This document shows, one piece after another, positions 1,002 to 63,756 of a stretch of 64,000 nt of DNA. Numbering within the stretch: position 1 is the first letter of the stretch; the number at the start of each line of letters is the position of its first letter. Position numbers and translations under genes: made by a program. This DNA comes from Apostichopus japonicus (Eukaryota > Echinodermata > Holothuroidea > Aspidochirotida > Stichopodidae), in the NCBI RefSeq assembly GCF_037975245.1, contig NC_092574.1, forward strand, positions 24,394,713 to 24,458,712. Reading direction: 5' to 3'. The notes under the pieces were generated by a model. The model was not told the origin of the DNA. It did not search any database and was given only the letters and a program-made list of their open reading frames with translations.

Positions 1002-1017
1002 ACAGGTTATCATATTA

Positions 1018-3657: not shown

Positions 3658-3663
3658 ATATAG

Positions 3664-5030: not shown

Positions 5031-5259
5031 TTAAAAGATGCAAAAGTGGTATAGAAACAAAGCCTGGACTGATAGCAAAGTCGCCCAGGAAAGAACCTGG
5101 GCACGAAAACCAAACTACAGAACGACTGATCCGCTCTCAACCCCAGTCCCCTTGCATCGGGACTGTGACTGTGTGATCATCGTCGGGTGTGCATCACCAT
5201 TCACCTCGAAGGGGAACAGATACTACAGATTATCTTAGCCAAAAAGGCCGAGAAGCGAT
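5031..5259 (-). mobile_element. U2 snRNA-headed SINE-like element, block I copy 1
   Basis: On the minus strand from 5259 the sequence starts ATCGCTTCTCGGCC, the 5' end of U2 snRNA, and follows U2 through the branch-site pairing segment GTAGTATCTGTTC for about 46 nt. It then departs into an unrelated body holding a GGGACT/AGTCCC hairpin, an AGTTTGG-TTTT segment and a hairpin with stem GCCCAGG/CCTGGGC. The body is shared with 49001-49239 and 61662-61852. No target duplication is clear here. The low-coordinate border is approximate. Alternative: a diverged U2-like RNA gene rather than a SINE. Confidence 0.7.
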
Positions 5260-5399
5260 GTACGTGTGTATGCGTGTAAGTGTGTGTGTGACGCCTGGCT
5301 TGTAAACACGGTATCTCAAGTAGGGAAGCTTGGAACAATCTAATATTTGGTGCATATGAGTACCACATTGAGTAGATGTGCCCTATTTTTTGTTGCCTG

Positions 5400-9415: not shown

Positions 9416-9478
<63 letters not shown>
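9416..9478. repeat. (TA)n microsatellite
   Basis: An uninterrupted TA array of about 63 bp at the end of block I copy 1. It separates two PLE fragments that point away from each other (PLE-2 on the minus strand, PLE-1 on the plus strand), both cut within the reverse transcriptase. At the matching position in copy 2 the array is longer and mixed with TCTA. Confidence 0.97.
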
Positions 9479-25000: not shown

Positions 25001-25003
25001 CGA

Positions 25004-25035
<32 letters not shown>

Positions 25036-25121
25036 TAGTAATATAGTTGTATGAAGCAAAACAGCTTTTAAAGTAAATACGTTTCTGTGTAAACTTTCAT
25101 TATTTGATTCTACATGACACC

Positions 25122-25127
25122 TTTATT
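25122..25127 (-). terminator. Polyadenylation signal of gene A
   Basis: AATAAA on the minus strand begins 8 nt after the TAA stop. The same spacing occurs in gene B (41880-41885). In gene C the corresponding hexamer is AATATA. No nearer alternative was seen. Confidence 0.6.
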
Positions 25128-25134
25128 TTCCATT

Positions 25135-28100: not shown

Positions 28101-28711
28101 GCCTAGTTATAAGTCATATGATTTTATCGCTAAGTCAAGTCAAATTTTGTCACTACTAACTATCTGATTATCTGAAGTCGAGTAACAAAATGTAACTCGA
28201 GTCTGACTCGAGTACAAAGTCATCGACTCTAGTCAATAACACTGTAAATAGATCCATTTAACACCGTTAATCAACTATCAGTAAGAAGTAGTGTCAAAGG
28301 AAGTTGAAGAGATATTTACGAATTATTTCTGAATTAGATTTTTTGCTCAAACAAATAAAGCATTCAGAATGTAATTGAAACATATTACCTGAGGTACATG
28401 TGGTACCGGTTGTGCCGTAATCATGGTGTTGGTACTTCCGAGATGTTGTGGTCCGGGATATCGTGGTCCGGGATATTGTGGTCCGGGATATTGTGGTCCG
28501 GGATACTGTGGTGGCTCTTCAATCTGAAGTTGGTCTGTAAAACATGGACAAAAGCATAAGAATATAAGTTAAGTTCAAACATTTAGTCCATTTTGTTAAA
28601 TAAAACACTTTTGGACGAAATTATGAAATGATGTATTGTTTGTTAATTAATCAAGTCTGATATTAAATCAGATGGCTTACCATTTTCGACCAAGTTTTTG
28701 TAATCCTCCAT
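25135..28711 (-). CDS. Dispanin/CD225-like two-TM protein, gene A
   Basis: Exons on the minus strand: 28711-28681 (MEDYKNLVEN), 28534-28389, 26262-26122 and 25287-25135, with GT-AG borders and phases 1, 0, 0. The total is 156 residues. Exon 2 encodes a proline-rich tail with four pentapeptides (QYPGP three times, RYPGP once) and QHLG. Exon 3 has a membrane segment, about residues 75-106 (LSLVLSIVFSLCLASLCC then IPAIVFAIL). Exon 4 has ALTGID, a HAKVAAILTG segment and a second hydrophobic stretch, ending Tyr-rich. The cysteine-rich first segment, short loop with Ala-Lys and second segment resemble CD225/dispanin proteins (IFITM relatives, membrane proteins often linked to membrane fusion or antiviral defence). 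Function here is inferred only from that. The start is the first ATG of the exon shared by all three copies; about 190 bp upstream is also conserved. Confidence 0.82.
25668..26032. mobile_element. hAT-like MITE in intron 3 of gene A
   Basis: A 365-bp element starts CAGTGGCGGAGC and ends with the complement of CAGTGGTAGAGC, flanked by 8-bp near-repeats AGTTGACG (25660-25667) and AGTCGACG (26033-26040). Gene B has an uninterrupted CGTCGACTAGTA site in the corresponding intron near 41325-41340. Short TIRs and an 8-bp duplication are typical of non-autonomous hAT elements. It is shared with gene C (55598-55994). Confidence 0.85.
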
Positions 28712-29210
28712 TGTCAGTTCGACTTCGTATTACTGAGTGATGTTGTTGTGTCAGAAGGTACCGTACGATTTGATTTTGACTATTACTTCCCTAACTGGTG
28801 CCCAAGAGTGCATCACGCATGAACAAACAGTCGCAAACACGGATGAACTTAAACAGTCAGTCCCCAGCGGTACGAAAAGCCCTTGCTATTCTTGTAGAAT
28901 ATGCATGGGGTTTCTTGACGTCACTCCTCATTAATATTTAATTAGGTAATACTTATCATTTTCGAAGGTCAATTTCACAGTCATTAACCAATTAATATGT
29001 CTGGTACTAACTGAATTTGATGAAAGAAAAGTGTCTTATCCAATCTTTATTAACAAAAGACACAAAAAAAGAGTAAAATGGAATTTTGGCCATATTTTCC
29101 GAACCTAAATTAACCATTTTCGTACTGTTTTTTTTTGTTTCCGAGTAATGTAGTGACTGTTCCGTTTCACGTTGGTACGTAATGCGCGAAATGCTTTAAC
29201 TAAGCGTGAT

Positions 29211-29736
29211 AAAACTTATGGAAATGAATTGCTTATATCATGGAACTCCATGCTTATATCGTATGATAACAGGAACTATTCATGGCCGTGAAATGACTTC
29301 TCTGTGGTGGATAGGGGCATATGGACGCCTGGAGATCATGAATTTCTCACTGCCAATACATCGGTTTGGTACATCCGCACATAAAAATACATGGAAGCAA
29401 TGCCATATCGTAACAATCGCTACTTATAGCACTACTTGCTGAAATCAGCCACTCAACACTGGTTTGAATTTATCAACAGCGATAATTTATTTAGAGACTC
29501 TCACCCATGCTGGTGCTCTTCAAATTCACCCTCCTGAAATTGTACATGGGGTGGCTAGTAATCAGCCTATGGAGCCTTGGCGGTATCGAGACAGGGGACT
29601 TTTTACTGGGTATATTTCCAACATAGCTAGTTTTGTGGAAACATGCAGATTATACAACAGGGAATTAAATTTGACACCTGAGAGGGCACTTTGGCTTAAA
29701 AATGGCCAGACAAAGCTGCCACTGTGACACCACGAT
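29211..29736. mobile_element. Insertion upstream of gene A, absent from gene B
   Basis: This 526-bp piece lies between TAAGCGTGAT and GATGAGGTCAG, which are fused in the gene B region (near 38380-38395). It is present, with extra length, upstream of gene C (59217-59825). Two open frames (29206-29442 and 29464-29727, plus) lie in it, including a PWRYRDRGLFTGYISNIASF stretch, but I do not recognise the protein and the gene C copy is frameshifted. Its class is unknown. Confidence 0.6.
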
Positions 29737-29739
29737 GAG

Positions 29740-31500
29740 GTCAGATTTGTTGGACATTTGGTCAGAGATCTTTTTTTTAAGAATGACAACACATTTACAT
29801 AATAATTAGTCATATGATGACATAAGTATATGAAATTACATATTAAATGGGTAATTTAACATGTTTGTGATAATATAACAACGGGTCAAGTCGACACCAA
29901 GCAGTTAGAACTTTTTTAGAAAAGTACATATAATTTCTAAAATATAATCACGGTGAAATAACTGTATATATCATTAAGCTAACAATACGCCTATTGTGTT
30001 GAAGCAATTCTTGCATGACTGTCGATTCATGGTTACAGTAGGTGAACAAGACATTTTGAGGCCTATTCACAATGTTGAAACTGGAATTGCTAAAGTTACA
30101 AGTTAATGCATTTGATTGTGAGTTGAGTCGCAATCCAAACTATACCTTCGATATACTCTTAATTTATGGCTTAACTACTATTATATGATGGACCTTGTTC
30201 GGTGAGGGGGGTGGGGGTTCCTATACTTTCTGGTCAAGTTACAGATCAACTAATGAAGAAGTGAAAATTGTGCACATTTATGACTTTCGTCCCAGGTTAG
30301 GGTGGATTTAAACCTAATAAGTCTCTATACACTCATGTTATGTTTAAAAGCACTCGTACTAATATCAGCAGTATATAAATATCATGTTTCTTTCAGAATA
30401 AAGGCAAGGAACTGTTCATACTGTCAGTACGAGTGCTTGGGAAGAATGATAAAAGAGGATAGTATGGCTGGTATAGGCATGAGGTTATTGTTCCAAAGGA
30501 CTTGCCATGGAGTACTCTAATTCAACCGATTCACACAGAGATTACAATAACTACTGTAAATCTTAAAGTTATATAATGTATATAGCTTAGCTTGGTACAA
30601 AAACAAATTAAAAGAGGGCATTAATATGGAGTTGAAATGACTTTAATTTGAATTTATGGAATTCTCTTTAAAAATCTAGATATTACTAAGGAATATAAAA
30701 TGAAATGATCATCTGTTTATAGTTTATTTATTCAATATAACTTAATACTCCAAGACGTTATAACGTTTTGATGAAATATCAATTAGTTGATAAATTGAAG
30801 AATAATTATTGATTTCTTGATGCTGGTCCTGTTCGTTGATTGATCTTTATAATAATATATATGAGAGGATTAATGAAAGCTATTTTTGGACCGTAATAAT
30901 AAAAAGGAAAAAAAAAAGAGAAATGTTCAAACTGATTTATTTCGACATTCTGAGGTCAGTTATTTTAAAAATATTTGTTCCCATAAATTGCGTGTATATT
31001 TAGATTCCGCTGTGTATATGCAGTTTACCGAAACGAAACAGATATTTTGTACACAATATATTTACCTCTATTGCACAGTTTGTGTTGTTACGTCTGTTTT
31101 TTTAGTATATGAATATTTATCATTTAATTTACATATTATTTACAGTATGTTGCTCTCACTTTCATTTCATTGGTTATTTAGTTATCGTCTTACTTTTGTA
31201 CATGAAAGAGTTATAATTTTTCAAAAAGTTGCTCATCAGTATGGTATCTTGTGGTATCAGATATCGGTATCATTCATACATACATACACACACACGCATA
31301 CAACACACAGACACATGCACACATACATACATACATACATACATACACACACACGCACACACTCTCCGCCTGCATGAATGCATAGGTTACGATTTCATCG
31401 AAACCAAAAACCATATTACGCCTCAACAGAGATCTCTCCTTTATGAGTATACATGCTAAGTGTAATCCCAATAAGGTCTAGTTTCTTCCATTTCATTTCT
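29740..31500. other. Region upstream of gene A without recognised genes
   Basis: Non-coding duplicated sequence shared with 59826-61980 and, up to about 30730, inverted at 37215-38380. It contains CA/CATA microsatellites at about 31275-31372. The open frame 30886-31377 ends in this microsatellite and is not recognisable. Confidence 0.6.
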
Positions 31501-31504
31501 GCAA

Positions 31505-31533
31505 CTGAAGAATGGCCGTGTTAACGCTCGAAA
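31505..31533 (+). other. Degenerate CTGANGA...GAAA motif
   Basis: CTGAAGA and GAAA are 18 nt apart, with only a weak stem between them (CGT/ACG). The paralogous site near 61988-62017 reads CTGAAAA, so the motif is decaying. The context CGAAATATTTTGTAACTG resembles PLE terminal regions. Confidence 0.3.
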
Positions 31534-31659
31534 TATTTTGTAACTGATTTATCGTTCTAAGTAATAAAGTTGGAAATGAAAGTATCATTTTCCCCCCTTT
31601 TCTCTTGTGGATATATATATATATATGTATATTGATTGATATATTGATATTGATATATT

Positions 31660-31722
31660 AATATTGATTGTATGTCCAGAGGTTCGAAACCGGTAGGGAA
31701 GGTCGTAATTCCACTGAATAAA
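31660..31722. repeat. Dispersed ~50-bp repeat with a GGTTCGAAACC box
   Basis: The segment ATTGTATGTCCAGAGGTTCG and the following 30 bases, ending GGTCGTAATTCCACT, occur here, at 33675-33722 and at about 62150-62200. It contains a perfect tRNA-type B-box (GGTTCGAAACC) and always lies next to TA-rich arrays or the tRNA-headed SINE, so it is probably part of a SINE. Confidence 0.6.
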
Positions 31723-32870
31723 AGTGTTAAATTAAACGTTAAACTTAAACATTTAGAAGAGCCGCTATATCTATTTTCAAGAAACTTAGTTGACAATCCA
31801 AAATAAACCTCCTGCCAGTACGATTAGACGCGAAAATTAATTTTCCGCAAAACTGTTTCCAGCACGCCCATTGTTTTCTGAATTCCTGACTCTTTTACCC
31901 CGGGAAAACAACAGCCAAACTCAAATCAATATGTCTCAAGAATCAACTATGGTCTTTATAGTCCCGAATCATCAGCCGGGCAAGTAAAAGAAAATGGCTG
32001 TGCCTACACTTTAAGGTGGCTTACTCCAATTAGAGTCTATATCAATCCGCTGGATGTTCACAGTCAGGAAAAGTGCCAAAATCTTAGTTTTTACGAAATG
32101 TTATCAATCAGGATCTTCTTTTTGTGGCTAACATGTTGAAGGGTATGAATGGAAGTACATTATTCAGGTGGATTCAAGTTAGCGTTAATCCTGAAAATTG
32201 TTGCTAAGCCACCTGACTACATGTGGTGCACAAAATTGGTCAATTGTGGCAATTTTAGACCCCTTTAGGCCTCCCAGGAGCAGCGTAGGAAAATTGTTTA
32301 CTACTGAGTGAAGATATTTGTTTACAAGTGAAGACAAATTCAGGCTCCGGATAGCGAAAAAATATCCACGGTCATGATGCAGAATTTTGATGGTGCCACT
32401 AAAGGCCAACTTTTCATCTATCCGGTGATGGGTAGCGTTTATCTACTGAGAACGTCTATCTAGACTTAGAGACCACATTACTTTTGTGATTTCTTATGTA
32501 AGTCGATGAAGCTTTTAATGGGCGTATGATACCTAACAATTCCGCCAGAGCCACCCCAATAAGGTAACATTAGTAATCATTAGCTATATGTACGTGTGTG
32601 ACCGTAAAATAGGGCCGAAACCGCCCACATGTTGGAACCCAAAGAAAGTGTCCCAACATGCATTTGACGTGGAAACAAAACATGTGGGCCAAAAAATGTT
32701 GGCTCAAAACATATTCTCCCCCTATTTTTTCCTCAAAATTTAGGTCCTAATTGTATCATTTATTTACAATATTTACACGTACTCTCATCTCGATCTTGTG
32801 CGATGCGTCGCGTCCGTTTAATGGTAGCGTTTATATTTGATTTATTACAGCCATATAATTCGACCTTCTG

Positions 32871-32923
32871 ATTGGCTGCTAATATATATCTGTATATATT
32901 CGAATTTGGACGCGTGTATAAAA
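32871..32923 (+). promoter_or_regulatory. Possible core promoter (CCAAT and TATA boxes)
   Basis: ATTGGCTG (an inverted CCAAT box) at 32871 and TATAAAA at 32917-32923 are 46 bp apart, and both are kept in the block II copy 2 (63252-63304). No open frame or known RNA follows clearly. Because the whole region is nearly identical between copies, conservation of the boxes is weak support. Confidence 0.3.
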
Positions 32924-33507
32924 TGGTATATCTGTCCCACAGAGCCTACCATACCCCTTTTCGTTGATCCCGAGTTTGCGATAATAGTTTCCATAGCCGT
33001 ATCATAGAGTTCGGCCAACTAGCAAATTGAAACCAAAAAAGTTCACTTCTGCACTGTCTTTATTTACGGCTCTGAAAGGTGCAAATAGGCGGCGACCTTT
33101 TTTATGTCTTTTTGATTTAGGGGGAACGTGAATGTCTTTTGATTTTGGGGTTGCAGTTTCGATAAATTGCGGGCAAATAAGGTTGTTTAAAATGACATTT
33201 TCAATCAGTTTGTATAACTCACAGTTTATTTAATTGAAAATTGGATGTGACATTAAAAATTGATCATAATAACACAGTTAAAACAGTGTTGACAATTAAA
33301 AGTTTGATTCGGAGAAGAATACTAATTCATGAACTAAACATGTGTATTTTCCTTACTTTACTTATTTTGTTAAGAGTTCAGGATTGTCATATATTCCCGC
33401 TGAGCATTATTTAAGGTTTCAAGTCATTATAAGGTTGGAAATGAAATAAAATTCATGTAAGTTTTCTATTTAATTTAAGGTATCAATTGAACAATTCTGT
33501 CCTGTTT

Positions 33508-33552: not shown

Positions 33553-33671
33553 GAAAATCGTAATGAGTTGGAAAATCAAGAACAGTGAAAAAACTTTCAG
33601 CCTCCACCGGGATTCGAACCACGGGCCTTCCGCTCTGTACGCGGACACCCTAAACACTAGGCTATGGACGC
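33541..33671 (-). mobile_element. tRNA-headed SINE
   Basis: Minus strand 33671-33600 is a 72-nt tRNA-like head. Its acceptor ends GCGTCCA/TGGAGGC pair at six of seven positions. The anticodon stem TCCGC/GCGGA is perfect with a seven-base loop (anticodon-position ACA), and it has a B-box GGTTCGAATCC. The T stem is imperfect. A unique tail follows (TTTTTTCACTGTTC to ATTACGATTTTCATT), ending in a TA array. The same tail occurs at about 42740-42805 and 54690-54765, where the tRNA part is truncated. No equivalent exists at this point in block II copy 2. Confidence 0.75.
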
Positions 33672-45040: not shown

Positions 45041-47559
45041 TCGGACTATAGCTGCTTATATCACTTAAGATGTATAGGCTATGACAGAAATCCTTTCCAC
45101 CAGATCTCCGACAGCCCAAATCCAACGAAGCAAATCAAGATACTTCGTGTACCGTAGGCCCAAGTCGCTTATTCCTCCCTTCGGATCTTAGAAACACATA
45201 CGGGGTGTTTAGATAGAGATTAGGGTGAGCCGGGGACAAAACTCAATCCGCAAAAAAAAAAAAAAAAAAAAAAACCGGAGAAACGAATCGCCCCCAAAAT
45301 AGATCAATAATGTTTGACCGATTGAAATATTTCAACATGGCACTAACACAATGATGAACGGGCTCCGCTGTACTGAGTTATTTGAGATCCATAGCACGGT
45401 TAAGGATAATATCTTCAAATGTTCTTTAATCTTTATCTGGCGTCTTCATTAAAAAAGTTAAGAAAAAAAAGGAGGATAAAACGGAAGACGAGAGACCGTG
45501 AAAATGAAGGCGAGTGAGAGAGAAAATGAAATATTTGATGGGATGATATGGTTTAATGTACAATACGTGTAGACATTTGATATGTATCAAAAACATTGAT
45601 AGCTACAAGCACTAAAATGGAGAACATATTCCTGTTTCATGTATTTATTGTATTATTTCGTTTTGAGTAAGAGAAACTCGGTTTATGTTTTTTTGTTGTT
45701 GTTGAAAGGAGGGTATATTTATCAGCTAGTAATTTCTTTCTTGATATTGCTTTGTAACTGTTGACCGTGTTCTATAGACTTTTATCACAACCGAAAGTTA
45801 ACTCACTCTTTAAATAAGATTTAACAGGTTATCATATTATGAGATTTTAGAGAATCCAAGAAAATATGAGCATATATTTATCATCTTATCCGACGGAATT
45901 TGTATTCGTGGATGTTAGAACGTGATTATACCGGAAACCGCAAACGACGATGTTTATAAAACCGAATTACGTCCACATACATATTTGTCTTCCAGTTTGT
46001 CGTTTCTTGTACTCAGTTATGAATTTTGATGACATTTCAAATCTCTGAAGTGTCCCTCAGATTCCATTTTTTCAATTCGTTTTATAATAGACAATTCGCC
46101 TGGGATTTGTTTTTATCGTTCAGAAATCCCAAAGCAAATGTTTAATTTCCCAAGTCACCATTTTTGTATTGCATTTGTAAATATTTTCACTACCTGTACG
46201 TCGCACACTAAATAATATTACGTTATGAGAGACATAGAGAGAGAGTGAAAGAATATGACAAAGAAATTGCATCATAATATCTGCATGAATCAGTGACATA
46301 TTGGTCCATAAAATTATGCCAATTGCATCTAGATATGAATATCGCTGACATAATAATATATCACCATAGCAACACTAATTTCGGTCCTTTCTTTCTGTTA
46401 CTTTTGAGAATCATAATTCAATGGGACACCAATTTTCATTACTTTTGAGAGTAACAGATTTTTTTTGTTATCTAATTTGTTCTTGAACCGTTTGCCGAAC
46501 GTTATTTTAACATTCAATTACGCCAAAGGAAGCAATTTCTCGACCAGATATGATTTAATTATGTTACAATTCAATTATTTAATTGGAACAATAACTGTTT
46601 CGAATAAAAAACACTTTTCTAAATTTGGTCGTAACTTCCGGAAATATAATAACTTTTAGGGAAAGATAGAAGAAGAAGACGAAGAAGAAGAAGAAATAAA
46701 AATAAAAATAACCTGTCAGCCTTTGCTGGAAGGTGGCTAACAGGCTATCAAAAATATCACATCATAGATACATTGAACAGCAGCAAAAAGTTGGCACAAT
46801 AAAATTACAAATAAGGAAAATGTGAACGTGGTAAAAAAAAAACAACACATGCACACAATGAAGACAAAAAATTAATAAAAGACAATTAATTCAAACTGGA
46901 TTTTTTTTTGCGATGGATAAATATAATTTCTAAAGACATGGAAGTAGAGATATGGCTTCTATTGATTTCTAAAGCAAGAGAGAAATGTGATCAACCGAAG
47001 AAATCTTATTTGTGGTCACGTGATTAATTGAAACACATTTCAGGCAAATTGTTACCTTTAAGAGAGAGAAGCAGAGAAGATAGAGATTGACAGAAAGAGA
47101 GAGAGAGAGAGAGAGAGGTGAGTGGAGAGAGAGGCGGAGAGAGAGATGAAGAGCTTTAAGAGAGCGAAAGAGCAAAAGAGAACATAATGATATTAAAGAT
47201 GAACATGATTGTATAGATTAAACCAGCTGGAAGCGTTTACTTATTAAAATTAGATGTCTTCTTTCCACCGCTATCATTCAATCATTCAGTTGGAAATATT
47301 TCTCGCAAATTATCAGGAAATATTGTCTCCTCTCCAAGACAAGAATAAAACTAACGATATACGACTTTTATATATTTATTTATTTGTCTTTTGGATGCGA
47401 AATAGGCTAAATGTATTTTCCGCTCTGAAAAATGTCGGCAGCTTATATACGTGGTGATGAATGTGTTGAAATTATGCCCTGCTTTTCTGTAGATTTAAAG
47501 CATGCTTGGGGGAGGGGGTTGGTTGGTTGCTTCATCAATTTCTGACGAGTTTTACTAAA

Positions 47560-47561
<2 letters not shown>

Positions 47562-47646
<85 letters not shown>
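47562..47646. repeat. (TA)n microsatellite, 85 bp
   Basis: At the corresponding place in copy 1 the array is only 23 bp (2751-2773), so it expanded or contracted since duplication. Confidence 0.97.
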
Positions 47647-47650
<4 letters not shown>

Positions 47651-49000
47651 GTTGCTAATAAATATGATTTCATTTGTTCAAACAACATAAGCTGATTATT
47701 TCACCAAATGAAAACTATGATTATTCGTAGTGAGTACGGTAAAGAAAGACACATTTCGAAACTGACTTTTTGCTCGCAAGGTTACTAATGTCCAGCTTGC
47801 TTTAAACATACGCAAAGAGAGGGGAAAGCAGGTCGAAAATATAAACGGAAAAACAATTCTCGAAATTTAGACTATATAGTCAAGCTTTATGGGTTACATT
47901 GAGAAAGAAGTTTGCATCGATATGGTATCGAAAATATATCAAACTCAACTCGAAAAGCTATTTTATGTGCATCTCTTCATAAAATATTTTAATTCCTAAC
48001 TCAGATTGTCCTTGCAAGTTATTCGTTTTTGCGGGTGAGGTCACGTGTGTCATAACGATGCTACACAAGGGTAGAAAGGTTTTATGCAGTATTATGATAG
48101 TAATTCCAATCCTCCCCCCGTCTCTCTTATACCACCCTTCCTTGAAGAAGACCTTCCTTCGAATCCATGTGTAAATAATTCTGAAGGAGTGAAGGAAAAA
48201 AAAATAGAAACCCTCTCTTCCATCACCCGCCCCACCCTCCCCCTCCCCTCCACCTCGTTTTGCCACCCTTAACAATATTTCATCGTGCTCGTCAGGCAAG
48301 GAGGCATGTCATAATGCAATTTGTTCTAGAAAAACGTGGAATAAAGAAATTCTCCCATGTCAGATCGTACACACATTAAACACATATATACCCCCCAAAT
48401 TTATATGTTCCCGTGAAGCTTCAAACAACCGGAGACCGGAATGCAGGATCTCATGAGTTTCTGGTACGAGATACGAAATAAACCCCATGAAACTCATGTC
48501 GACTTATCACATAGGCCGTATTTAATATAGTCTTGGTTTTGACAAACATTGTATAAATGTCACCGCGTATGGGCGTTTACTTACAATAATACATGGTATG
48601 TGCTTCAAGGTACAATCCACGCACGGTTGAAGCTTATGTACGCCATACGGTACATTTCGTGCGAGTGGTAACGTGGACTGCATAATCAAAAATTTTACAT
48701 GGAAGTCATGTGTTGATTATACATATATGCGAAGTTTCAAGTATGGTACGTAGTAGATGAATTCAATTATTTCACACGGTGTAGGATTGAGAAAGGGAAT
48801 TTAGTGACCTCCCCCACCAGTTGCTAGATATCTGCTAAAATGGCCACAGTGTTTGAACAATTACTATACACACTACGTTCATTTCGCTGATACTTTATAC
48901 GAAGAGATATAGAGAGGGAGGGAGGGAGGGGGGCATTTGAGCTATAGCCATGTTTCTGTAATAATTTTGGTTTTATTCAAGATCAAAATATTCTAAATCT

Positions 49001-49239
49001 TAAAAGATGCAAAAGTGGTATAGAAACAAAGCCTGGACTGATAGCAAAGTCGCCCAGGAAAGAAACTGGACACGAAAACCAAACTACAGAACGACTGATC
49101 CGCTCTTCAACCCCAGTCCCCTTGCATCGGGACTGTGACTGTGTGATCATTGTCGGGTGTGCATCACCATTCCCATCGAAGGGGAACAGATACTACAGAG
49201 TATCTTAGCTAAAAATGCCGAGAAGCGATGTACGTGTTG
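49001..49239 (-). mobile_element. U2 snRNA-headed SINE-like element, block I copy 2
   Basis: Paralogous to 5031-5259, at the same position in the duplicated block, so it was present before duplication. On the minus strand it starts ATCGCTTCTCGGC at 49239 and has the branch-site segment GTAGTATCTGTTCC and the GCCCAGT/CCTGGGC-type hairpin, here with one mismatch. Confidence 0.7.
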
Positions 49240-49375
49240 TATGTGTGTAAGTGTGTGTGTGTGACGCCTGGCTTGTAAACACGGTATCTCAAGTAGGGAA
49301 GCTTGGAACAATCTAATATTTGGTGCATATGAGTACCACATTGAGTAGATGTGCCCTATTTTTTTGTTGCATGTG

Positions 49376-50980
49376 AAGGTCACCAAACGTCAGTTAGAGC
49401 CAAAAACCAAAATATTAAAACAAGCAATAACTCCCATTGACAGGATCCGACATGGATGATATTTTGGGACCAGTTGTGAATGGGGTAAGGGATTACTTCA
49501 AAACATAACGGTCATGTGATCCAAGGTCAACAAAGGTCAATCAAGGGTCAAAAACTAGTATTTTTGCAATAACTTGAGAACCAAATGTCCGTCAACATTG
49601 GGAGTTACGCTATTGTTATCAGGGAGTCGACCCGCATCTAGATGACCTTTGACCTCAGGTTGACCTCCGGTGACCTTAATCAGTTTGTTGGGTTATTTGA
49701 ATTTTCGTGGCAATAATCGGATCTCAAAGGTACCTTCCGATCAAAATGGTCCATAGTTGACCCCTGTGCGACCTTCGTGTGCTTTTTGGAATCAGTCAAA
49801 CTACATCTGACCGCGAGGTCAAAAGGTCAAACCTCGAAAAATATGCTCATTTTAGGAGATGCGGGGCAAAACAAAACAAAGAAAAAATTGTCAATATGTT
49901 GATATATGATAGAGCTCTTTGTGCTATATATAGGAACCAACTTCCGCTTCAATCGGACACCCAGTTCTCAAGTTATGGGGAGCCAAAGGTTGGTTTTGAT
50001 ACATTTCTAGCAATAGCATTATGTGTGTACATTGTAGGCCAAACAAATTTTAGGACAGAGTGCACCTCATCAAGAGGAACATTTTTGATACAAGCCATCA
50101 GGTCATCTAAGGTCATTCAAGGTTGATTATGTGCAAAACACTGCCAGCTTAAGCTAATTTTTGCAACAACTTCTAGTCACGAAGTCTGACATGGCTGTTA
50201 TATTAGGAAAAGTTGTGAATGAAGTGGGGGCACATTTTCCAAAATAACCGTGATGTGATCCAAGGTCACCAAAGGTCATTTATCGGTCAAAATGTGTTTT
50301 TTCTGAATAACTTGTGAAACTACCACTGACAGGGTCCGAAATGGTTGATATTTTGGGACTAGTTGTGAATGGGGTAAGTGATCATTTCCAAACATAACGG
50401 AAATATGATCCAAGGTCAACAAAGGTCAGTTAGGGGTCAAAATATAGTATTTTTGCAATAACTTGAGAACCAAATGTCCACCAAGGTCGGGATTTTAGGA
50501 CAGAGTGCAAATCATCAAGGGGAACATTTGTGATAAAAACCATTAGGTCATCCAAGGTCATTCAAGGTTGCTTATGTGCAAAAAACTGCCAAATTATGTT
50601 ACGTTTTGCAACAACTTCTAGTCACGAAGTCTGACATGGCTGATATATTGGGACAAGTTGTGAATGAATTAGTAGCACGTTTTCTAATATAATCGTGATG
50701 TGATCTAAGGTCACCAAAGGTCAATTATGGGTCAAAATGTGTAGTTTGGCAAATAACTTTTGAAACTACCGTTGACAGGGTCCGACATGGTTGATATTTG
50801 TGGACTAGTTGTGAATGGGGTAAGGGATCGTTTCAAAACATAACAGTCATGTGATCAAAGGTCAACAAAGGCCAATTAGGGGTCAAAAACTAGTATTTTT
50901 GCAATAACTTGAGAACCAAATGTCCATCAAGGTTGGGAGTTACGCTATTGTAATACAATAGTCGAACTGCATTTGGGAGA
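49376..50980. repeat. AGGTCA-rich ~445-bp tandem repeat
   Basis: Landmarks recur at about 445-bp spacing: TTTTGGGAC-type at 49461, 50350 and 50796, and GGAGTTACGC at 49601 and 50936 (1335 bp, three periods). Every unit has clusters of GGTCA half-sites at 4-6 bp spacing (AAGGTCAACAAAGGTCAA, then GGGGTCA), and the flanks hold TGACCTTTGACCTC. Copy 1 has about one unit. Confidence 0.85.
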
Positions 50981-51332
50981 CCTTTGACCTCAGGTTGACC
51001 TCCAGTGACCTGCATTAGCTTCTTTCAAGTTGATTCTTTGAAGTTTCGTGGGCATATTCCAATCTAACTTGTCCATAAGTGGACTCCTCTGCAACCTTAT
51101 TGTGCGAAGTTATTAGAGATTTGGTTTGGTTTTGTAATACTTAGTGTGTGGATTCATAACATTGAGTACAAGGACCCTATTGTTTTTGATGGAGGTGTGT
51201 ATAACCACGTACAGTAGACTGACCTGTGTTAGCATGCCATATTGTCATTGTAACAGCTAGTTCTGGTTATACTAACAAGCAGAATTCTAGTGCATTGAAG
51301 TCATCGAAACCTCAATGCATTTTGCATTCTGG

Positions 51333-52754
<1,422 letters not shown>

Positions 52755-53127: not shown

Positions 53128-54690
53128 GCTCAAAAGCTCTTCCAAATAGCAATAAAGAAACTTATGTTGCGTACCGAATCAAGTAAACCACAGAATAAGT
53201 TTCTCTAAAAGGTTATATTTTGATGACGAATTCAAAAGATATAAACAATATTGTAAATTATACCTGGGACGTAATCAATGAGGTTCTAGAGTGAGACCGT
53301 AATAAATCATCGTACCCATCTGTTTTCAAAGACGGCGATCACGAAACCAGCGACGATTAAGAAATTGCATACGGCTTTAACGATTTCTTCATTAACCTTA
53401 AACCCTCACTTGCCAGATAATCAATCATATGTAAAATCAAACAACCCCATATATAGTAATAATAATATGCGAAACTCTATTTTTTTTTCCCTACCATGTC
53501 AGGGAGGAGGAACTTTTACTTGTGGCGAATCATTGCTTAAAGCCTAAGAAAGCAGCTGGGTATGATCAGGGGAGTTGTTATGGAACCGTCCTTGGTATGA
53601 TGATTTCGAGCAAAATATTGTTAAGCAGATATTACTTTCATTGTCACCCCTTACTGAAATATCTGTAACATATCGCACACCACTGGGGTATTCCAAGATA
53701 AGCTGAAGATTGCTATGGTCTTTCCCATTTTTGAGAAAGGGGAATGCAATATCTACGAGAACTAACGACCAATCTCAATTCTCTCTTTTTATCTATGCTT
53801 TTCCAAAATTATCGAACGTCTCATGTCCAACAGAATAATAAATTTCCTCGATGCTCATAACATACTATGCAAGGAACAATATGGGTTCCGACCTGGTCAC
53901 TCAACTAAGCTTGCCCTGGCAGATGCCATTGATAAATTATACGATAGCCTTGATGAGAAGAAAACATGTATTGGTATATTCTAAGACCTATCAAAACCTT
54001 TTGATACCATTGACCAATGTATTATTCTAAACAAGATATCATTCTACGGAATTGAGGACCAACCCTTATCTGGATGGACAGCTATACTTATCGAAACGTT
54101 TACAGAATACTTCGTATAAGAACACCATATCTGACTATGCTGAAATCCGCTGTGGTGTTCCTCGAGATTCAATATTAGGTCCACTTCTATTCATTATATG
54201 TATCAATGACATCTGCCATATCTCTAATATTGCAAAAACTATTTTATTTGCAGATTAAATTAGTATATTTTTCGAATACAATAATTTGAATACTTTACAT
54301 GACATGGAGTTATAATAAACTTTACGACAGGTTTGCAACTAATTAAAAAGCTATCACTTAATCTTGATAAGACCACCTACATTGTTTTCAATAAAAGTCA
54401 ATCTTCTTCTTAGAAATATATTTGAACGGATGGTTAGCCAATCAAGCATGTACATAGTACTAAGTTTCTCGAAGAATACATTAATAGTAAACTTACTTGG
54501 TGTGAACATATTTCAAATATTGCAAACACTGTGGCGAAAAAATGTTGCAATTATTTCTAAGTTGAAGCACTACTTTCCTCAGAAAATTCTTAAAATGCTT
54601 TACCAAACATTAGTATTCCCCCACTGTTCATATCGCTCTATCATTGAACAGACATTTGTTAATGAAATGGAGGTAAACGACAAAGGCAAA
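53128..54690 (+). pseudogene. LINE-B, 5'-shortened copy near gene C
   Basis: Starts at the linker before the RT and runs through a YPSVFKDGDHETSDD region (about 53318-53360), the empty insertion site near 53521, EQYGFRPGHSTKLALAD (53875 onward), DLSKPFDTID, RCGVPRDSILGPLLF and KTILFAD (catalytic region, followed by a stop). It ends at about 54690 after [14 protein letters not shown]. Several frameshifts. Followed by the SINE tail (54690-54762) and a TA array. Confidence 0.87.
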
Positions 54691-54762
54691 TGAATATATA
54701 ATTGAAAATCGTAATGAGTTGTAAAATCCAGAACAGTGAAAAAACTTCCAGCCTCCACCGGG

Positions 54763-54893
<131 letters not shown>

Positions 54894-55027
54894 CGATAAA
54901 CCAAATATCGTTAGCATGAAGCAAAACAGCTTTAAGAGTAAAAACATTTCTGTGTATAACTTAACTGTGTATAACTGTGTATAACTCTTAAACTATTTGA
55001 TTATACATGATACCTATATTTTCCATT

Positions 55028-58000
55028 TTAGTAATCATAATAATAACCGTGGTTGCTGTTATAAATGACGGCAATTAAACTCAGAATCACGGCACTTCCA
55101 AATGTTACGCCTGTCAGAATGGCTGCGACATTTGCGTGTGACACAGCATTCTTGATGTTGGTGTCGATTCCAGTCAAAGCCTGTAGAAATGACGGAGAAA
55201 GCAAAAATAAATAACATGCGAGCAATGTTATATACTACCTGAGACACTCTTGGGGACTTTTAGTTATATTTATTATTCAGTGTTGCTTAATGGCCATCAG
55301 TGTTGCCTCAGTGTTGAGGATGTTAAAACTTGCAATATTGATTGCAATTGTTGCCATTCGTTTGTAACATCTACATCGCCTTCAGACACTTGTTCGTATT
55401 AGAATAAATAACACGCAAAGAGCAAAACATGATAGAATTGAGAAAGAAAAATTGTAATCGATGGAAATAAAAGGTGTCATGGTAAAACGTCCATCATAGG
55501 ATTGCAAATCATTTAGTTTTTTGTTGTTGAGTTACTTGCAAATTATACTCGATTGGATTGGTCAAACTAACATTAACAGGCGAAAAAGTAGTTGACGCAG
55601 TGGCGGAGCGTCCGTAAAGTCAGAGGGACGGATACCCCCCACCCCCCGACGGACTCAAATGGACTGCTGGCGCCTTTTCAGCTTTTTACCACCTTTTACT
55701 TATTCGCGATTAATGACTTTCTATTGCGCTCTCAAATACCTGTTGACATTTGTCACATTTTGTTGGTGTAATTTTCTGACAGAATTGCAATGACACATAT
55801 TTATTCTTCGTTTATCTGCAAATTAGCAATGCCCGGAAAGGTCATTCCCGGCGATCTAGGGAGTATCTTTACTCAAAAAATATGTACGCTTCGCGCTAAG
55901 CTGTGGTAGCGCTCCGCTTAGATAATGTCGAAAGCGCCACTACAGACCATTCTCGTCACCCCTGACCTGACCAATACCCCTAGCTCTACCACTGAATCGA
56001 CGCTGTTCCAAACTAATAGTCCCTTATATAATACAAACAGTCATAATCTATAAATTGTCTTCAGAATACTGACCAAAATAGCAAATATTATGGCCGGAAT
56101 GGTGCAGAACAACGGCCAGAGGCACAACGAGAACACGATGGACAGCACCAAGGACAATATGGCCTTGGTCTTAATGGAAGATATCACATTTAAATCTTCC
56201 GGGCTACGAATAATCTGTAAAACAAACGATACAGGAAAAAAATGTTTTAATTTTTACTATAGAGTAATTGTTTTTCTATTTATTATTGCGGGCTTTGTGC
56301 CGTTGTATTGTGGCTGATTATAGTCATAGATTATAAATAATCAAATTGTTTTGATGTTGAGCAAACCTTGCATGACTGTTGATTTATGGTTGGGTGCACA
56401 AGGAAGTTTGAAGCCTTTCCACAAAGTCGTTATTATGTTGAAGCGATCCTTGCATGACTGTTAATTCATGTTTGGGTGAACAAGAAATTTTGAGGCCTTT
56501 TCGCAATGTTGGAAATCTTAATTGATAAGTGAATATAAGGTGCATATATTTTGTACATTGTAGACGTTTGAGTTCCATAAATATACGTTTAACTGTGAAC
56601 CCATTGTGCACAAGGTCAGACATTGAATAATTTGAAAAGTGTTAACAATTTCCATTTGTAAAACTATTGTGACGTGTGAGCAAACAGTACCGTCATTCAC
56701 AATTAACACACATAGAATTTCTTAGTGTTGGTATCAATTATATATATAATAAAGCTAACAATACGCCTAACACAAATTTAACAAGTTGTTATTACGTTGA
56801 GCAACTCTTGCATGACTGCTGACTTATGGTTGGGTGCACAAGGAAGTTTGAAGCCTTTCCACAATGTTGGAAACTGGAATTGCTAAGTGAATAAGGTGCA
56901 TATATTTTGTACATTGTAGGCGTATTAATTCCATATTTTAAAAATCTCTAGTTTTGTCCCTAATTCAGGTTTGTTAAGTCATGTCACAATTCGTCTGATT
57001 TTCGAAAATGAAGTTCAGTTAAGTCACCAACTCATAAGTCAATTGATTTTATCGCAGACCAATCCAAGTCACAAGTCGAGACATTTAAAGTTACAAGTTA
57101 ATTCATTGATTGTAAGTTGAGACACAAGCCAACTCTAGCAGCAACTAAAGTGATGTGCACTACATATAGGTACAGGCCTAACAAAATAAACCAGCTCAAA
57201 TACAAAAAGGCTGCATCTTTGTGCAGTGATGATATCGGTCATGTGGTTGACCTACTTCGTGAGCTCCAGTTGCAATGCTATGAGACGAGTAAATTCTACA
57301 AGTTTAATCATTTGCATTAGACAGCAATTGAAAGTTATTTTAAAACTTGTACTTCAACCTTTCCCCTACACTCTCTATCTCTCCCTCTCTCGATACAAAA
57401 CATGAAAGAATGACATACGTTACAGTAAAGTCATGAAACATGATCGTTGTCTGACGACAGTTACTAACTATGTACAGCCAACATAACTCATATTGTACCA
57501 TAGGAGGTGATGGTGGTGGGCGCAGGGGGTGCGGGGGGGGGGGGTGGGGAGGAGGAGGTTGACGGGAAGGTCCTCCTTATCTCAAATTACACACTGGCAT
57601 GAATTAAAAATCAACTCATATTTTTATAACTCGTTACACATACTAACACAAAGTTAAAACATTCTGAATACATCATTTCTTCAAGGGAAGGGATACTCAA
57701 TTTCGCCTCTTGATTTTATGCTTAATGTAACTAATGTAGTACATGCAAACCCAGTTAGCGAATCATCAGAACATACCATACCAAGGAAATATTGATAATT
57801 ATTACATTAAATTATTAACTGATGCCATATCGTCTTTTTATCTCATAATTGTATCTTCTTTTCTCCATCCTCGATTTGTTTGTGACGTCACATCATACGT
57901 CATCCCCTCTTACATATCGATACTTGTAATTATGTCGTGGTAGTTATTACCAAACAAAAAATGACTACACTTTGAGGCGCAATAAACGACATATGTCTCC

Positions 58001-58711
58001 CATTGTGTCGTGGAAGGTAAAAGAACAATGAACGTTTGTTTCGATCTTCTCTCACTTAGCCTTTCTTTCCATTTTCTTGGTGTAAAACAATTTGTTAGCG
58101 TCTACACTGGTGATGTCAACAAGTCAAATATATTCAAACCTAGTCAAAAGTCATATGATTTTAAATGTAGTCACAAAATGAGTCACAAAATGTAACTCGA
58201 GTCTAACTCGAGTACAAAGTCATCGACTCTAGTCAATAACACTGTAAATAGATCCATTTAACACCGTTAATCAACTATCAGTAAGAAGTAGTGTCAAAGG
58301 AAGTTGAAGAGATATTTACGAAATATTTCTGAATTCGATTTTTTGCTGAAACAAATAAAGCATTCATAATGTAATAAAAACATATTACCTGAGGTACATG
58401 TGGTACCGGTTGTGCCATAATCATGGTGTTGGTACTTCCGAGATGTTGTGGACCGGCATATTGTGGTCCGGGATATTGTGGTCCGGGATATTGTGGACCG
58501 GGATACTGTGGTGGCTCTTCCATCTGAAGTTGGTCTGTAAAACATGGACAAAAGCATAAGAATATAAGTTAAGTTCATACATTTAGTCCATTTTGTTAAA
58601 GAAAACACTTTTGGACGAAATTATCATATGATGTATTGTTTTTTAATTAATCAAGTCTTATATTAAATCAGATGGCTTACCATTATTGACCAATTTTTTG
58701 TTATCCTCCAT
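55028..58711 (-). CDS. Dispanin/CD225-like two-TM protein, gene C
   Basis: Exons 58711-58681 (MEDNKKLVNN), 58534-58389, 56214-56074 and 55180-55028 join with GT-AG borders and phases 1, 0, 0, giving 156 residues. Exon 2 has QYPGP three times and QYAGP once, then QHLGSTNTMIMAQPVPHVPQ. Exon 3 gives LSLVLSIVFSLCLWPLFC and TIPAIIFAIL. Exon 4 gives ALTGIDTNIKNAVSHANVAA and a second hydrophobic segment ending in a Tyr-rich tail. It is closest to gene A in exons 1-2 and flanks, while the LCLWPLFC segment is shared with gene B rather than A, possibly by gene conversion. The polyadenylation hexamer is AATATA instead of AATAAA. The reading frame is intact, so a functional gene is likely. Family call as for gene A. 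Confidence 0.82.
55598..55994. mobile_element. hAT-like MITE in intron 3 of gene C
   Basis: Orthologous to 25668-26032: starts CAGTGGCGGAGC, ends with the complement of CAGTGGTAGAGC, and is flanked by AGTTGACG (55590-55597) and AATCGACG (55995-56002). Its 397 bp include a stretch missing in the gene A copy. Confidence 0.84.
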
Positions 58712-59216
58712 TGTCAGTTCGGCTTCGTATTACTGAGTGATGTTGTTGTGTCAGAAGGTACCGTACGCTATGACTTTGACTATTACTTCCCTAACTGGTG
58801 CCCAAGAGTGCGTCACGCATGAACAAACAGTCGCAAACACGGATGAACTTAAACAGTCAGTTCCCAGCGGTACGAAAAGTGTTTTCTATTCTTGTAGAAT
58901 ATGCATGGGGTTTCTTGACGTCACTCCTCATTAATATTTAATTAGGTAATACTGATCATTTTCGAAGGTCAATTTCACAGTCATTAGCCAATTAATATGT
59001 CTGGTACTAACTGAATTTGATGAAAGAAAAGTGTCTAATCCAATCTTTATTAACAAAAGACACAAAAAGGAGTAAAATGGAATTTTGGCCATATTTTCCG
59101 AATCTAAATCAACCACTTTCAAAGTGTTTAGAATTTTTTTTTGGTTCCGAGTAATGTAGTGACTGTCCCGTTTCACGGCGGTACGTAATGCGCGAAATGC
59201 TTTAACTAAGCGTGAT

Positions 59217-59825
59217 AAAACTATTGGAAATGATTTGCTTATATCAATGCTTATATCGTATGATAACAGGAACTATTCATGGCCGTGAAATGACTTCTCT
59301 GTGGTGGATAGGGGCATAAGGACGCCTGGAGATTATGAAATTCTCACTGCCAATACATCGGTTTGGTACATCCACACATAACAATACATGCAAGCAATGC
59401 CATATCGTAACAATCGCTACTTATAGCACTACTTGCTGAAATCAGCCACTCAACACTGGTTTGAATTTATCAACAGCAATAATTTATTTAGAGATCTCTC
59501 ATGAGATGGACCCATGCTGGTGCTCTTCCAAGTTCAAGCCCTGCCACTACAAAGACTACAAGCCCTGCCAGTGCCCCTTCAAATTCACCCCCTGAAATTG
59601 TACATCGGGTTTCTAGTAAGCAGCCTATGGAGCCTTGACGGTATCGAGACAGGGGAGTTTTTACTGGGTATATTTCCAACATAGCTATAGTTTTGTGGAA
59701 ACATGCAGATTATACAACAGGGAATTAAATTTGACACATGAGAGGGCATTTTGGCTTAAAAATGGCCAGACAAAGCTCTAGTTCACCCACTGAAGAGAGA
59801 GTGGTTGCCACTGTTACACCACGAT
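59217..59825. mobile_element. Insertion upstream of gene C
   Basis: Counterpart of 29211-29736, absent at the gene B locus. It is about 80 bp longer, with additional CCTGCCA/CCAGTGCCCC-rich sequence near 59535-59580, and its frames are broken. Class unknown. Confidence 0.6.
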
Positions 59826-61570
59826 GAGGTCAGCTTTGTGGGACATTTGCATGGTCAGAGATTTTTTTTTTAAGAATGACAACACATTAACATAATAATT
59901 AGTCATATGATGACATAAGTATATGAAATTACATCTTAAATGGGTAATTTAACACGTTTGTGATAATGTAACGACGGGTCAAGTCGACACCAGGCAGTTA
60001 GAACTTTTTAGAAAAGTACATATAATTTCTAAAATATATTCACGGTGAAAAAACTGTTTGATTGTAGACTAACCAGGAGGAAGTGAGTTTCCATGCAGAA
60101 ACACTATATCAATATAAACTATACGGTAAATATACGTTTAACTGTAAATAAATTGGATACAAGGTCAGACATGGGCTAATTTGAATCGTGTTAAAAATTC
60201 CCTTTTGTAAAACTATAGTGACGTGCGAGCAAACAGCACCGTCATTAACAATACACAGGAAATGTTTTACAGTTAACTATACCATTATATATCATAAAGC
60301 TAACAATACCCCTAACCCAAATCGAAAATGGTTACAGTAGGTGAACAAGACATTTTGAGGCCTATTCACAATGTTGAAAACTGGAATTGCTAAGGTTACA
60401 AGTTAATGCATTTGATTGTGAGTTGAGTCGCAATCCAAATTATACCTTGGATATACTCTTAATTTATGGCTTAACTACTATTATATGATGGACCTTGTTG
60501 GGTGGTGGGGGGGGGGATTCCTATACTCTCTGGTCAAGTTACAGATCAACTAATGAAGAAGTGAAAATTGTGCACATTTATGACTTTCGTCCCAGGTTAG
60601 GGTGGATTTAAAAATAATAAGTCTCTATACACTCATGTTATGTTTAAAAGCACTCGTACTAATATCAGCAGTATATAAATATCATGTTTCTTTCAGAATA
60701 AAGGCAAGGAACTGTTCATACTGTCAGTACGAGTGCTTGGGAAGAATGATAAAAGAGGATAGTATGGCTGGTATAAGCATGAGGTAATTGTCCCAATGGG
60801 CTTGCCATGGGGTACTCTAATTCAACCGATTCACACAGAGATTACAATAACTACTGTAAATCTTAAAGTTATATAATGTATATAGCTTAGCTTGGTACAA
60901 GAACAAATTAAAAGAGGGCATTAATATGGAGTTGAAATGACTTTGAATTGAATTTATGGAATTCTCTTTAAAAATCTAGACATTACTAAGGAATATAAAA
61001 TGAAATGATCATCTGTTTATAGTTTATTTATTCAATATAACTGAATACTCCAAGACGTTATAACGTTTTGATGAAATATCAATTAGTTGAGAAATTGAAG
61101 AATAATTATTGATTTCTTGACGCTGGTCCAGTTCGCTGATTGATCTTTATAGTAATATATATGAAAGGATTAATGAAAGCCATTTGTGGACCGTAATAAT
61201 AAAAAGAAAAAAAAACAGAAATTTTCAAACTGATTTATTTCGACATTCTGCGGTCAGTTATATATATTATTATTTGTTCTCATAAATTGGGTGTATATTT
61301 AGATTCCGCTGTGTATATGCAGTTTACTGAAATGAAACATATTTTGTACACAATATATACCTCTAGTGCACAGTTTGTGTTGTTACGTCTGTTTGTTTTA
61401 GTATATGAATATTTATCAAATTAATTTACATATTATTTACAGTATGTTGCTCTCACTTTCATTTCATTGGTTATTTAGTTATCGTCTTACTTTTGTACAT
61501 GAAAGAGTTATGATTTTTCAAAAAGTTGCTCATCAGTATGGTATCTTGTGGATTCAGATATCGGCATCAT
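59826..61570. other. Region upstream of gene C without recognised genes
   Basis: Non-coding copy of 29740-31270. No domain or RNA was recognised. Differences from copy 1 include about 250 bp at 60050-60300 that copy 1 lacks but the inverted arm has (near 37960-38220), so copy 1 probably suffered a deletion. Confidence 0.6.
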
Positions 61571-61661
61571 TCATACATACATACACACTCACGCATACAA
61601 CACACACACATACACACACACTCCGCATGCATGAATGCATAGGTTACGATTTCATCGAAAC

Positions 61662-61852
61662 GCTTCTCGGCCTTTTGGCTAAGATCATGTGTAGTATCTG
61701 TTCCCTTTCGAGGGGAATGGTGATGCACACCTGACGATAATCACACAGTCACAGTCCCGATGCAAGGGGACTGGGGTTAGAAGCGGATCAGTCGTTCAGT
61801 AGTTTGGTTTTCGTGCCCAGGTTTTCTCCTGGGCGACTTTTTCTTAAATGTG
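61662..61852 (+). mobile_element. U2 snRNA-headed SINE with 12-bp target duplication
   Basis: The insertion starts with CGCTTCTCGGCCTTTTGGCT at 61661, identical to U2 snRNA from its third base, and continues CTAAGATCATGTGTAGTATC before diverging after about 44 nt. The body has an AGTCCC/GGGACT hairpin (about 61751-61771), AGTTTGGTTTTCG and a GCCCAGG/CCTGGGC hairpin (61815-61834), ending in T-rich sequence. It is flanked by TTTCATCGAAAC at 61650-61661 and 61853-61864. Block II copy 1 has a single TTTCATCGAAAC (near 31391-31402) and no insert. This is a textbook occupied/empty pair, showing retroposition. It is independent of the block I copies. Confidence 0.88.
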
Positions 61853-63251
61853 TTTCATCGAAACCAAAAAGCCATATTACGCCTCAACACACACAACAAT
61901 GGGCTCAACAGAGATCTCTCCTTTTTTAGTATACATGCTAAGTGTAATCCCAATAATGTCTAGTTTCTTCCATTTCATTTCTGCAACTGAAAAAGGGCCG
62001 TGTTAACGCTCGAAATATTTTGTAACTGATTTATCGTTCTAAGTAATAAAGTTGGAAATGAAAGTATCATTTCCCCTCCCCCCTTTTTCTCTTGTGGATA
62101 TATACATATATATATATATATATATATTGATATTGATGAATTCATATTTATTGTATGTCCAGAGGTTCGAAACCGGTTGGGAAGGTCGTAATTCCACTAG
62201 AAAAAAGTGCTAAATTAAACGTTAAACTTAAACATTTAGAAGAGCCGCTACATCTTTTTTCAAGTAACTTGGTTGACAATCCAAAATAAACCTCCTGCCA
62301 GTACGGTTAGACGCGAAAATGAATTTTCCGCAAAACTGTTTCCAGCACGCCCATTGTTTTCTGAATTCCTGACACTTTTACCCCGGGAAAAACAACAGCC
62401 AAACTCAAATCAATATGTCTCAAGAATCAACTATGGTCTTTGTAGTCAATAAAAAAAAAATAAGAGTCAATATAATCCGCTGGATGTTCACCGTCAGGAA
62501 AAGTGCCAAAATCTTAGTTTTTCGATATGTTATCAATCAGGATCTTCTTTTATTGGCTAACATGTTGAAGAGTATGAATGGAAGTACATGTGGTGGTTGA
62601 CAATTGGTCAATTGTGGCAATTTTAAACCCCTTTAAGCCTCCAATGGGCAGCGTAGGAAAATTGTTTACTACTGAGTGAAGATATTTGTTTACAAGTAAA
62701 GACAACTTCAGGCTCCGGATAGCGAAAAAAATATCCACGGTCATGATACAGAAAATTGAAGGTGCCACTCAAGGTCAACTTTTCATCTATCCGGTGATGG
62801 GTAGCGTTTATCTACTGAAAACGTCTATCTATACTTAGAGACCACATTACTTTTGTGATTTCTTATGTAAGTCGATGAAGCTTTTAATGGGCGTATGCTA
62901 CCTAACAATTCTGCACAATTTTCCGCCAGAGCCATCCCAATAAGGTAACATTAGTAATCATTATCTACATGTTCGTGTGTGACCGTAAAATAGGGCCCAA
63001 ACCGCCCCACATGTTGGAACCCAAAGAAAGTGTCCCAACAGGCATTTGACGTGGAAACAAAACATGTGGGCCAAAAATGTTGGCTTAAAACATATGCTCC
63101 CCCTATTTTTTCCTCAAAATTTAGGTCCTAATTGTATCATTTATTTACAATATTTACACGTACTCTCATCTCGATCTTGTGCGATGCGTCGCGTCCGTTT
63201 AATGGTAGCGTTTATATTTGATTTATTGCAACCATATAATTCGACCTTCTG

Positions 63252-63304
63252 ATTGGCTGCTAATATATATCTGTATATATTCGAATTTGGACGCGTGTAT
63301 AAAA
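63252..63304 (+). promoter_or_regulatory. Possible core promoter, copy 2
   Basis: Same ATTGGCTG and TATAAAA pair, 46 bp apart, as at 32871-32923. What it would drive is not evident. Confidence 0.3.
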
Positions 63305-63756
63305 TGGCATATCTGTCCCACAGAGCCTACCATACCCCTTTTCGTTGATCCCGAGTTTGCGATAATAGTTTCCATAGCCGTATCATAGAGTTCGGCCAAC
63401 TAGCAAATTGAACCAAAAAAGTTCACTTCTGCACTGTCTTTATTTACGGCTCTGAAAGGTGCAAATAGGCGGCGACCATTCTTATGTCTTTTTGATTTAG
63501 GGGGAACGTGAATGTCTTTTGATTTTGGGGTTGCAGTTTCGATAAATTGCGGGCAAATAAGGTTGTTTAAAATGACATTTTCAATCAGTTTGTATAACTC
63601 ACAGTTTATTTAATTGAAAATTGGATGTGACATTAAAAATTGATCATAATAAGACAGTAAAAACAGTGTTGACAATTAAAAGTTTGATTCGGAGAAGAAT
63701 ACTAATTCATGAACTAAACATGCGTATTTTCCTACTGTTGATTACTTTACTTATTT

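Follow-up and report, generated by a model that had tools for sequence, protein, structure and literature searches.

A U2 snRNA-headed SINE family of Apostichopus japonicus with copies resident in U2 genes at the insertion site of Keno-like LINEs

The heads of SINEs are usually explained by the co-option of RNA genes whose promoters are internal. U2 snRNA genes do not possess such a promoter, and therefore snRNA-headed SINEs pose the question of the source of both the head and the transcription. In the SINEU elements of crocodilians, U1 or U2 heads were reportedly added repeatedly, and a Tx1-type LINE is said to be the mobiliser. SINEU (Kojima 2015, doi 10.1093/gbe/evv100) are introduced as snRNA-headed SINEs in the accessible parts of papers that cite them (PMC8010984, PMC5753468, PMC7245038). 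Non-autonomous elements of another type, the R2 SIDEs and R2/R1 hybrid SIDEs, are described for Drosophila rDNA in the available portion of PMC3414825, which reserves the name SINE for elements made by polymerase III. As for U2 genes, the available text of PMC4640811 and PMC6136364 gives a U2 target site for the LINEs Keno and Utopia, and the nick is placed at U2 nt 38/39 in that of PMC4640811.

The family analyzed here, from the sea cucumber A. japonicus, is truly snRNA-headed, and combines a SINEU-like structure and a SIDE-like habitat with a probable head origin that is visible within the same genome. As in SINEU, as far as the accessible accounts of those elements go, a head from an snRNA gene is joined to an unrelated body and the copies are dispersed. 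However, the sea cucumber body also occurs within U2 genes, at a site targeted by LINEs, and these copies offer a direct, probable origin of the head. The crocodilian snRNA-headed SINEs are a described analogue, likened here by structure. The family shares with the R2 SIDEs, in the portion of PMC3414825 available, the properties of a short non-autonomous element that sits at the target of a site-specific LINE, and like them it would borrow the LINE machinery and the transcription of the target gene. In contrast, the SIDEs of that account consist of the 5′ and 3′ ends of the LINE and are confined to rDNA (PMC3414825), whereas the body of the U2-headed SINE matches no LINE 3′ end compared and most of its copies are dispersed. 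In the literature searched, which included few subscription papers, no SINE was described as residing at a U2 site targeted by a LINE, and the novelty is provisional to that extent.

The window, which is the whole stretch of 64,000 nucleotides analyzed, contains the SINE insert on the forward strand at 61662-61852, bounded by an exact 12-bp target duplication. The 5′ copy of the duplication, TTTCATCGAAAC, is located at 61650..61661 (+) and the 3′ copy at 61853..61864 (+). The head corresponds to U2 snRNA nt 3-45, comprising stem I and the branch-site pairing region (61661..61703, +), and matches the U2 of this genome at 43 of 43 positions; the last C of the 5′ target copy is common to U2 nt 3. 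The SINE body and 3′ tail, with hairpins and the 3′ terminus CTTTTTCTTAAA, follow at 61704..61848 (+). The tail is separated from the second target copy by TGTG (61849..61852, +), where most other copies have AAGT(AT). A single, empty target copy is present in a duplicated block at 31393..31404 (+). The occupied allele reads GGTTACGA-TTTCATCGAAAC-insert-TTTCATCGAAAC-CAAAA from 61642, and the empty allele reads GGTTACGA-TTTCATCGAAAC-CAAAA from 31385. Thus, the preliminary description of a U2-headed SINE caught as an occupied/empty pair was confirmed by the exact duplication, the U2 match and the empty site. The empty target does lie in the duplicated block, but two bases away from 31391-31402, the position that had been given for it.

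The occupied and empty blocks are duplicated about 30 kb apart, and the flanks of the insert agree with the duplicated block at 94.6% over 930 bp upstream and 86.8% over 745 bp downstream. Since the other block has no copy, the window insertion is younger than the block duplication. The window copy is 98.4% identical to the family consensus (188 matched nucleotides, head and body). In the Rfam search, U2 was matched at 61659-61735 (50 bits against a cut-off of 46; E 5.8e-07 over the whole window), and the convincing span is U2 nt 1-45. Among 4227 Rfam families, no credible family besides U2 was detected for the SINE body (next best E 3.2), and at a loose threshold the body likewise had no family. 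The score of the body against U2 nt 46-193 was reached by 285 of 300 shuffles; that is, the body is unrelated to the remaining U2. Exact body patterns gave 0 matches in the viral contigs and in the collection of genome contigs searched. Several hairpins with predicted energies were obtained for the predicted RNA, and in a search for conserved RNA structure among 48 copies, two-sided changes were observed in only two pairs.

A second SINE insertion, of an older subfamily and with a shortened 3′ end, was found at 5077..5259 on the reverse strand (94.5% to the consensus), and its segmental-duplication copy at 49046..49229 (-) (91.3% to the consensus). As their flanks are in common, these two copies represent one insertion that was duplicated. 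The window thus contains two independent SINE insertions, the 61662 insert and the duplicated one, in agreement with the preliminary description. A clear target duplication was sought at the 5077 and 49046 copies and none was found; both copies stop after GACTTT. The window as a whole is built as a mosaic from large segmental duplications, direct as well as inverted and for the most part 86-99% identical, and contains LINE fragments. The direct pairs are 411-9429 / 45452-52563 and 23979-33330 / 53668-63710, and inverted copies lie at 36-44 kb. Some of the fragments in these duplications are presumably Penelope-like. A tRNA-like sequence (33599-33671, reverse strand, 47.4 bits) was also observed within a duplicated block.

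The whole genome (671.6 Mb, 35 contigs) was searched for further copies. A 30-mer over the U2/body junction of the main subfamily gave 370 exact copies, a lower bound for the family because only exact junctions were counted, and the reversed control gave 0. At least 44 matches with differing flanks were located on at least 18 contigs (best 40 of 2609 candidates scored). For the junction study, the 40 copies that best matched the window copy were used, and identity is overstated in this set because of that choice. In all, 46 copies were aligned, and the 3′ end was present in 43 of them. A flanking exact repeat of at least 7 bp was detected in 29 of these 43, compared with 4.2% of shuffled pairings. 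In the other 14, the script found no duplication of that length, although two of them, L012 and L040, show one further out by eye. The 43 copies do not correspond to 43 independent events, since several are segmental copies with common flanks (L042/L043/L046, L015/L016, L022/L030, L018/L031, and L034/L035).

The consensus is 196 nt long, up to GTAT, and is composed of U2 nt 1-45, about 145 nt of body and tail with no relation to U2, A's and GTA. The 5′ end was at U2 nt 1-2 in 29 of the 46 copies. The dispersed copies terminate in AAAAAGTA at the 3′ side, like a continuation at U2 nt 36-38. After the A run, the next four positions are G, T, A and T in 38, 34, 34 and 32 of the 43 copies, respectively, matching U2 nt 36-39. 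At least two subfamilies (A and B) were seen in addition to older variants, subfamily A being the commonest in the set examined. The copies are short, dispersed and numerous, and have variable target duplications, as is expected of a SINE. The genome-wide search with its junction copies and duplications therefore bears out the earlier proposal of an active multicopy family. Two findings had been named in advance as contrary to that proposal, namely that only the copies in the window exist, or that the true U2 gene shares the body. Neither was observed, as there are numerous copies and the body is absent from the true U2 gene. When exact U2 heads followed by a different body were sought, 27 places were found. 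Twelve of them were read and proved to be 12 point variants of the same SINE, and another, C16:31097054, is a known truncated LINE. Thus, no second U2-headed family was present among the 13 of 27 exact-head places identified.

Above the Rfam cut-off, 46 U2 matches were detected in the genome, 42 on contig C16 and 4 on C15. The C16 array is composed of 645 bp units, and the 93.9 kb of it that was read contains 36 full U2 genes, 19 5′ fragments and 18 3′ fragments. The 3′ fragments begin at nt 35 (13 fragments) or nt 38 (5 fragments), subject to the ambiguity of an A run. Immediately upstream of them, LINE 3′ ends were found in 14 cases and the SINE in 4. The LINE insertion site in the array is thus a single site, U2 nt 35-38. 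The 5′ junctions are more variable. In seven intervals of 4977-5044 bp they lie at U2 nt 25-32, and in shorter LINE copies of 520, 658 and 4877 bp they lie at nt 50, 45 and 45, respectively, the final 3 nt being ambiguous in the 4877 bp copy. Three LINE 5′ junctions in total are at nt 50. The LINE 3′ ends in the array are of four types, A to D; the last 19 nt are common to families B and C, and the terminus of family D is much alike.

Exo_endo_phos and RVT_1 domains were detected in L078 and L079, which are two loci of two LINE families, read in part. The array LINEs are called Keno-like here on the basis of the site and the endonuclease type: they are inserted at the U2 nt 37-39 site, L078 and L079 have an AP-type endonuclease and a reverse transcriptase, and the AP-type endonuclease fits Keno rather than Utopia. 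Within the accessible text of PMC4640811 and PMC6136364, Keno and Utopia use the same U2 site as the array LINEs, and Keno has the AP-type endonuclease. They are, however, autonomous LINEs, whereas the U2-headed SINE would be a short parasite of such LINEs. A LINE sharing the 3′ tail of the SINE had been anticipated, but no convincing common tail was found in the three U2-site LINE families compared (A, B and C). The body and tail aligned to the last 400 nt of these families no better than shuffles. Poly(A)-type SINEs need no 3′ tail shared with a LINE. With no match beyond chance to the 3′ ends of families A, B and C, the body is of putative origin, and the LINE that would move it is likewise a putative partner.

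Three U2 units of the array, which lies outside the window, possess normal U2 upstream DNA, U2 nt 1-45, a 142 bp SINE body and, after it, the remainder of U2 starting from nt 35-36, so that the resident body is flanked by duplicated U2 sequence. In two of these units, the upstream DNA was identical by eye to that of normal U2 genes (110 nt compared). Upstream DNA, U2 nt 1-45 and body are therefore joined at the LINE site inside U2 genes. In a fourth unit, a 5′-shortened body lies behind U2 nt 1-52 or 53. Another shortened SINE lies behind a LINE inside one U2 unit (L085), and two consecutive SINEs were found in one U2 gene (L086). The shortening points differ, which indicates that SINEs inserted into the C16 array separately at least four times. 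The SINE tail joined to U2 nt 36-52 was detected at 8 places genome-wide (control, 0). Six of these lie in the C16 array, and the other two are a U2 copy on C20 and a site on C5. The C20 resident (L091) is a full SINE of subfamily A that has a head of its own, and U2 about 9-28 is joined there to SINE nt 4 onward. It is the one resident of subfamily A, and its U2 copy is without recognisable first nucleotides and the usual upstream DNA. The known residents with an intact promoter belong to subfamily B, which has near-identical dispersed relatives on C11 and C15. On C5 (L092), a SINE is located inside the U2 head of another SINE. Thus, seven of the eight tail/U2 junctions are in U2 genes or copies and most family copies are elsewhere; target loyalty is weak, since most SINE copies lie outside U2.

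Based on these results, we consider it likely that the SINE uses a U2-targeting Keno-like LINE, obtained its head and promoter from the U2 gene in which it landed, and was scattered off target. A LINE that targets U2 nt 35-38, Keno-like in its AP-type endonuclease and reverse transcriptase, would move the SINE in trans. We infer that the head was gained when a body landed in a U2 gene with its 5′ junction at nt 45. The U2 promoter would then produce a U2(1-45)-body RNA, and target-primed reverse transcription would carry this RNA back into U2 or, more often, to off-target places that resemble the site. In this view, the U2 head would not be a polymerase III head but a piece of target flank, captured and supplying an RNA polymerase II promoter. 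The cut points of the U2-site machinery agree with both SINE ends, since LINE junctions occur at nt 45 and the 3′ GTAT corresponds to U2 nt 36-39. Long target duplications often begin at the A or T of GTAT, near the nick at nt 38/39 given in the available text of PMC4640811. The LINE target site is contained in the head, so that any dispersed copy is itself a possible target, and the use of such a landing pad by a further SINE was seen once, on C5. It also seems fairly probable that the SINE makes its own head, by landing in the gene that its helper LINE targets: it would take the U2 promoter and the first 45 nt and spread as a polymerase II U2 chimera, the dispersed copies of which are new landing pads.

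A full-length SINE that landed in U2 would acquire a double head, and elements copied from such a resident would keep it. Double heads were observed in L012 (extra U2 about 7-37) and L040 (extra U2 about 7-23), in both cases before a nearly complete SINE and inside the target duplication, and the C20 resident has the same layout. The extra U2 pieces of L012 and L040 would also be given by a template jump, in which the reverse transcriptase switched from the RNA of an ordinary SINE or LINE fragment to mature U2 snRNA, and the copies in U2 genes arose later. A precedent for such a jump is found in the available portion of PMC3414825, where R2 5′ ends are joined to U12 snRNA and tRNA in Drosophila. 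However, a template jump predicts neither the agreement of nt 45 with two truncated LINE 5′ junctions nor a 3′ end at U2 nt 36-38, and the C20 resident, with its U2 piece joined near the start of the SINE, is a double head made by insertion. We therefore regard a template jump as an unlikely origin of the head.

For transcription, a standard polymerase III SINE may be considered, in which the head is an internal promoter, as in tRNA- and 7SL-headed SINEs, and the U2 residents are dead ends. An internal promoter would equally yield the 5′ ends at U2 nt 1-2. However, T runs occur in the consensus at nt 15 and 150 (T4) and at nt 180 (T5), and 37, 44 and 40 of 45 copies, respectively, retain them. 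Such T runs stop RNA polymerase III, and U2 genes are polymerase II genes. Judged from the sequence, the runs of four or five T's disfavour polymerase III transcription of the SINE, and this explanation is improbable. The U2 upstream DNA of C16 was also sought beside the dispersed copies, and no match was obtained at E 0.01 (39 loci and the window). Given the T runs and the dispersed copies without C16 U2 upstream DNA, the residents in U2 genes are the simplest source of RNA, and the SINE would use the U2 promoter. Partial U2 copies are common in animal genomes and the window is highly duplicated, but an explanation by ordinary U2 pseudogenes, or by segmental duplication that happened to yield a few copies, can hardly be entertained in view of 370 exact junction copies (control, 0), differing flanks on at least 18 contigs and a body unrelated to U2, and it is ruled out by the copy number and the target duplications.

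In the preferred reading, in which the head was obtained in a U2 gene through the Keno-like LINE, the intermediate is visible: the body is present in U2 genes, the LINE site is U2-specific and the junctions match. The origin of a SINE head is thus testable directly within one genome. If true, this reading accounts for the existence and the repeated addition of snRNA heads. It would also suggest a general route in which SINE heads arise from snRNA, tRNA or rRNA genes through the LINEs that insert there site-specifically, and it predicts that similar target-headed parasites are left by other site-specific LINEs.

Three further observations were made in the genome. The U2 genes form two classes with near-identical RNA and different upstream DNA, represented by the C16 array (L060) and by the four C15 matches (L048-L050). 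On C5, eight exact junction copies lie on one strand at 11042412-11066015 with a spacing of about 2.7 to 4.1 kb, and are probably part of a larger unit repeated in tandem. At L010 (C11:20354032-20355819), three tandem SINEs were found, two of subfamily B and one of subfamily A, and the same AAGTACCTTTCCT stands behind each of them. That this array arose by tandem duplication only was rejected because the three copies span two subfamilies, and the arrangement suggests repeated insertion into one site made by the element's own 3′ end.
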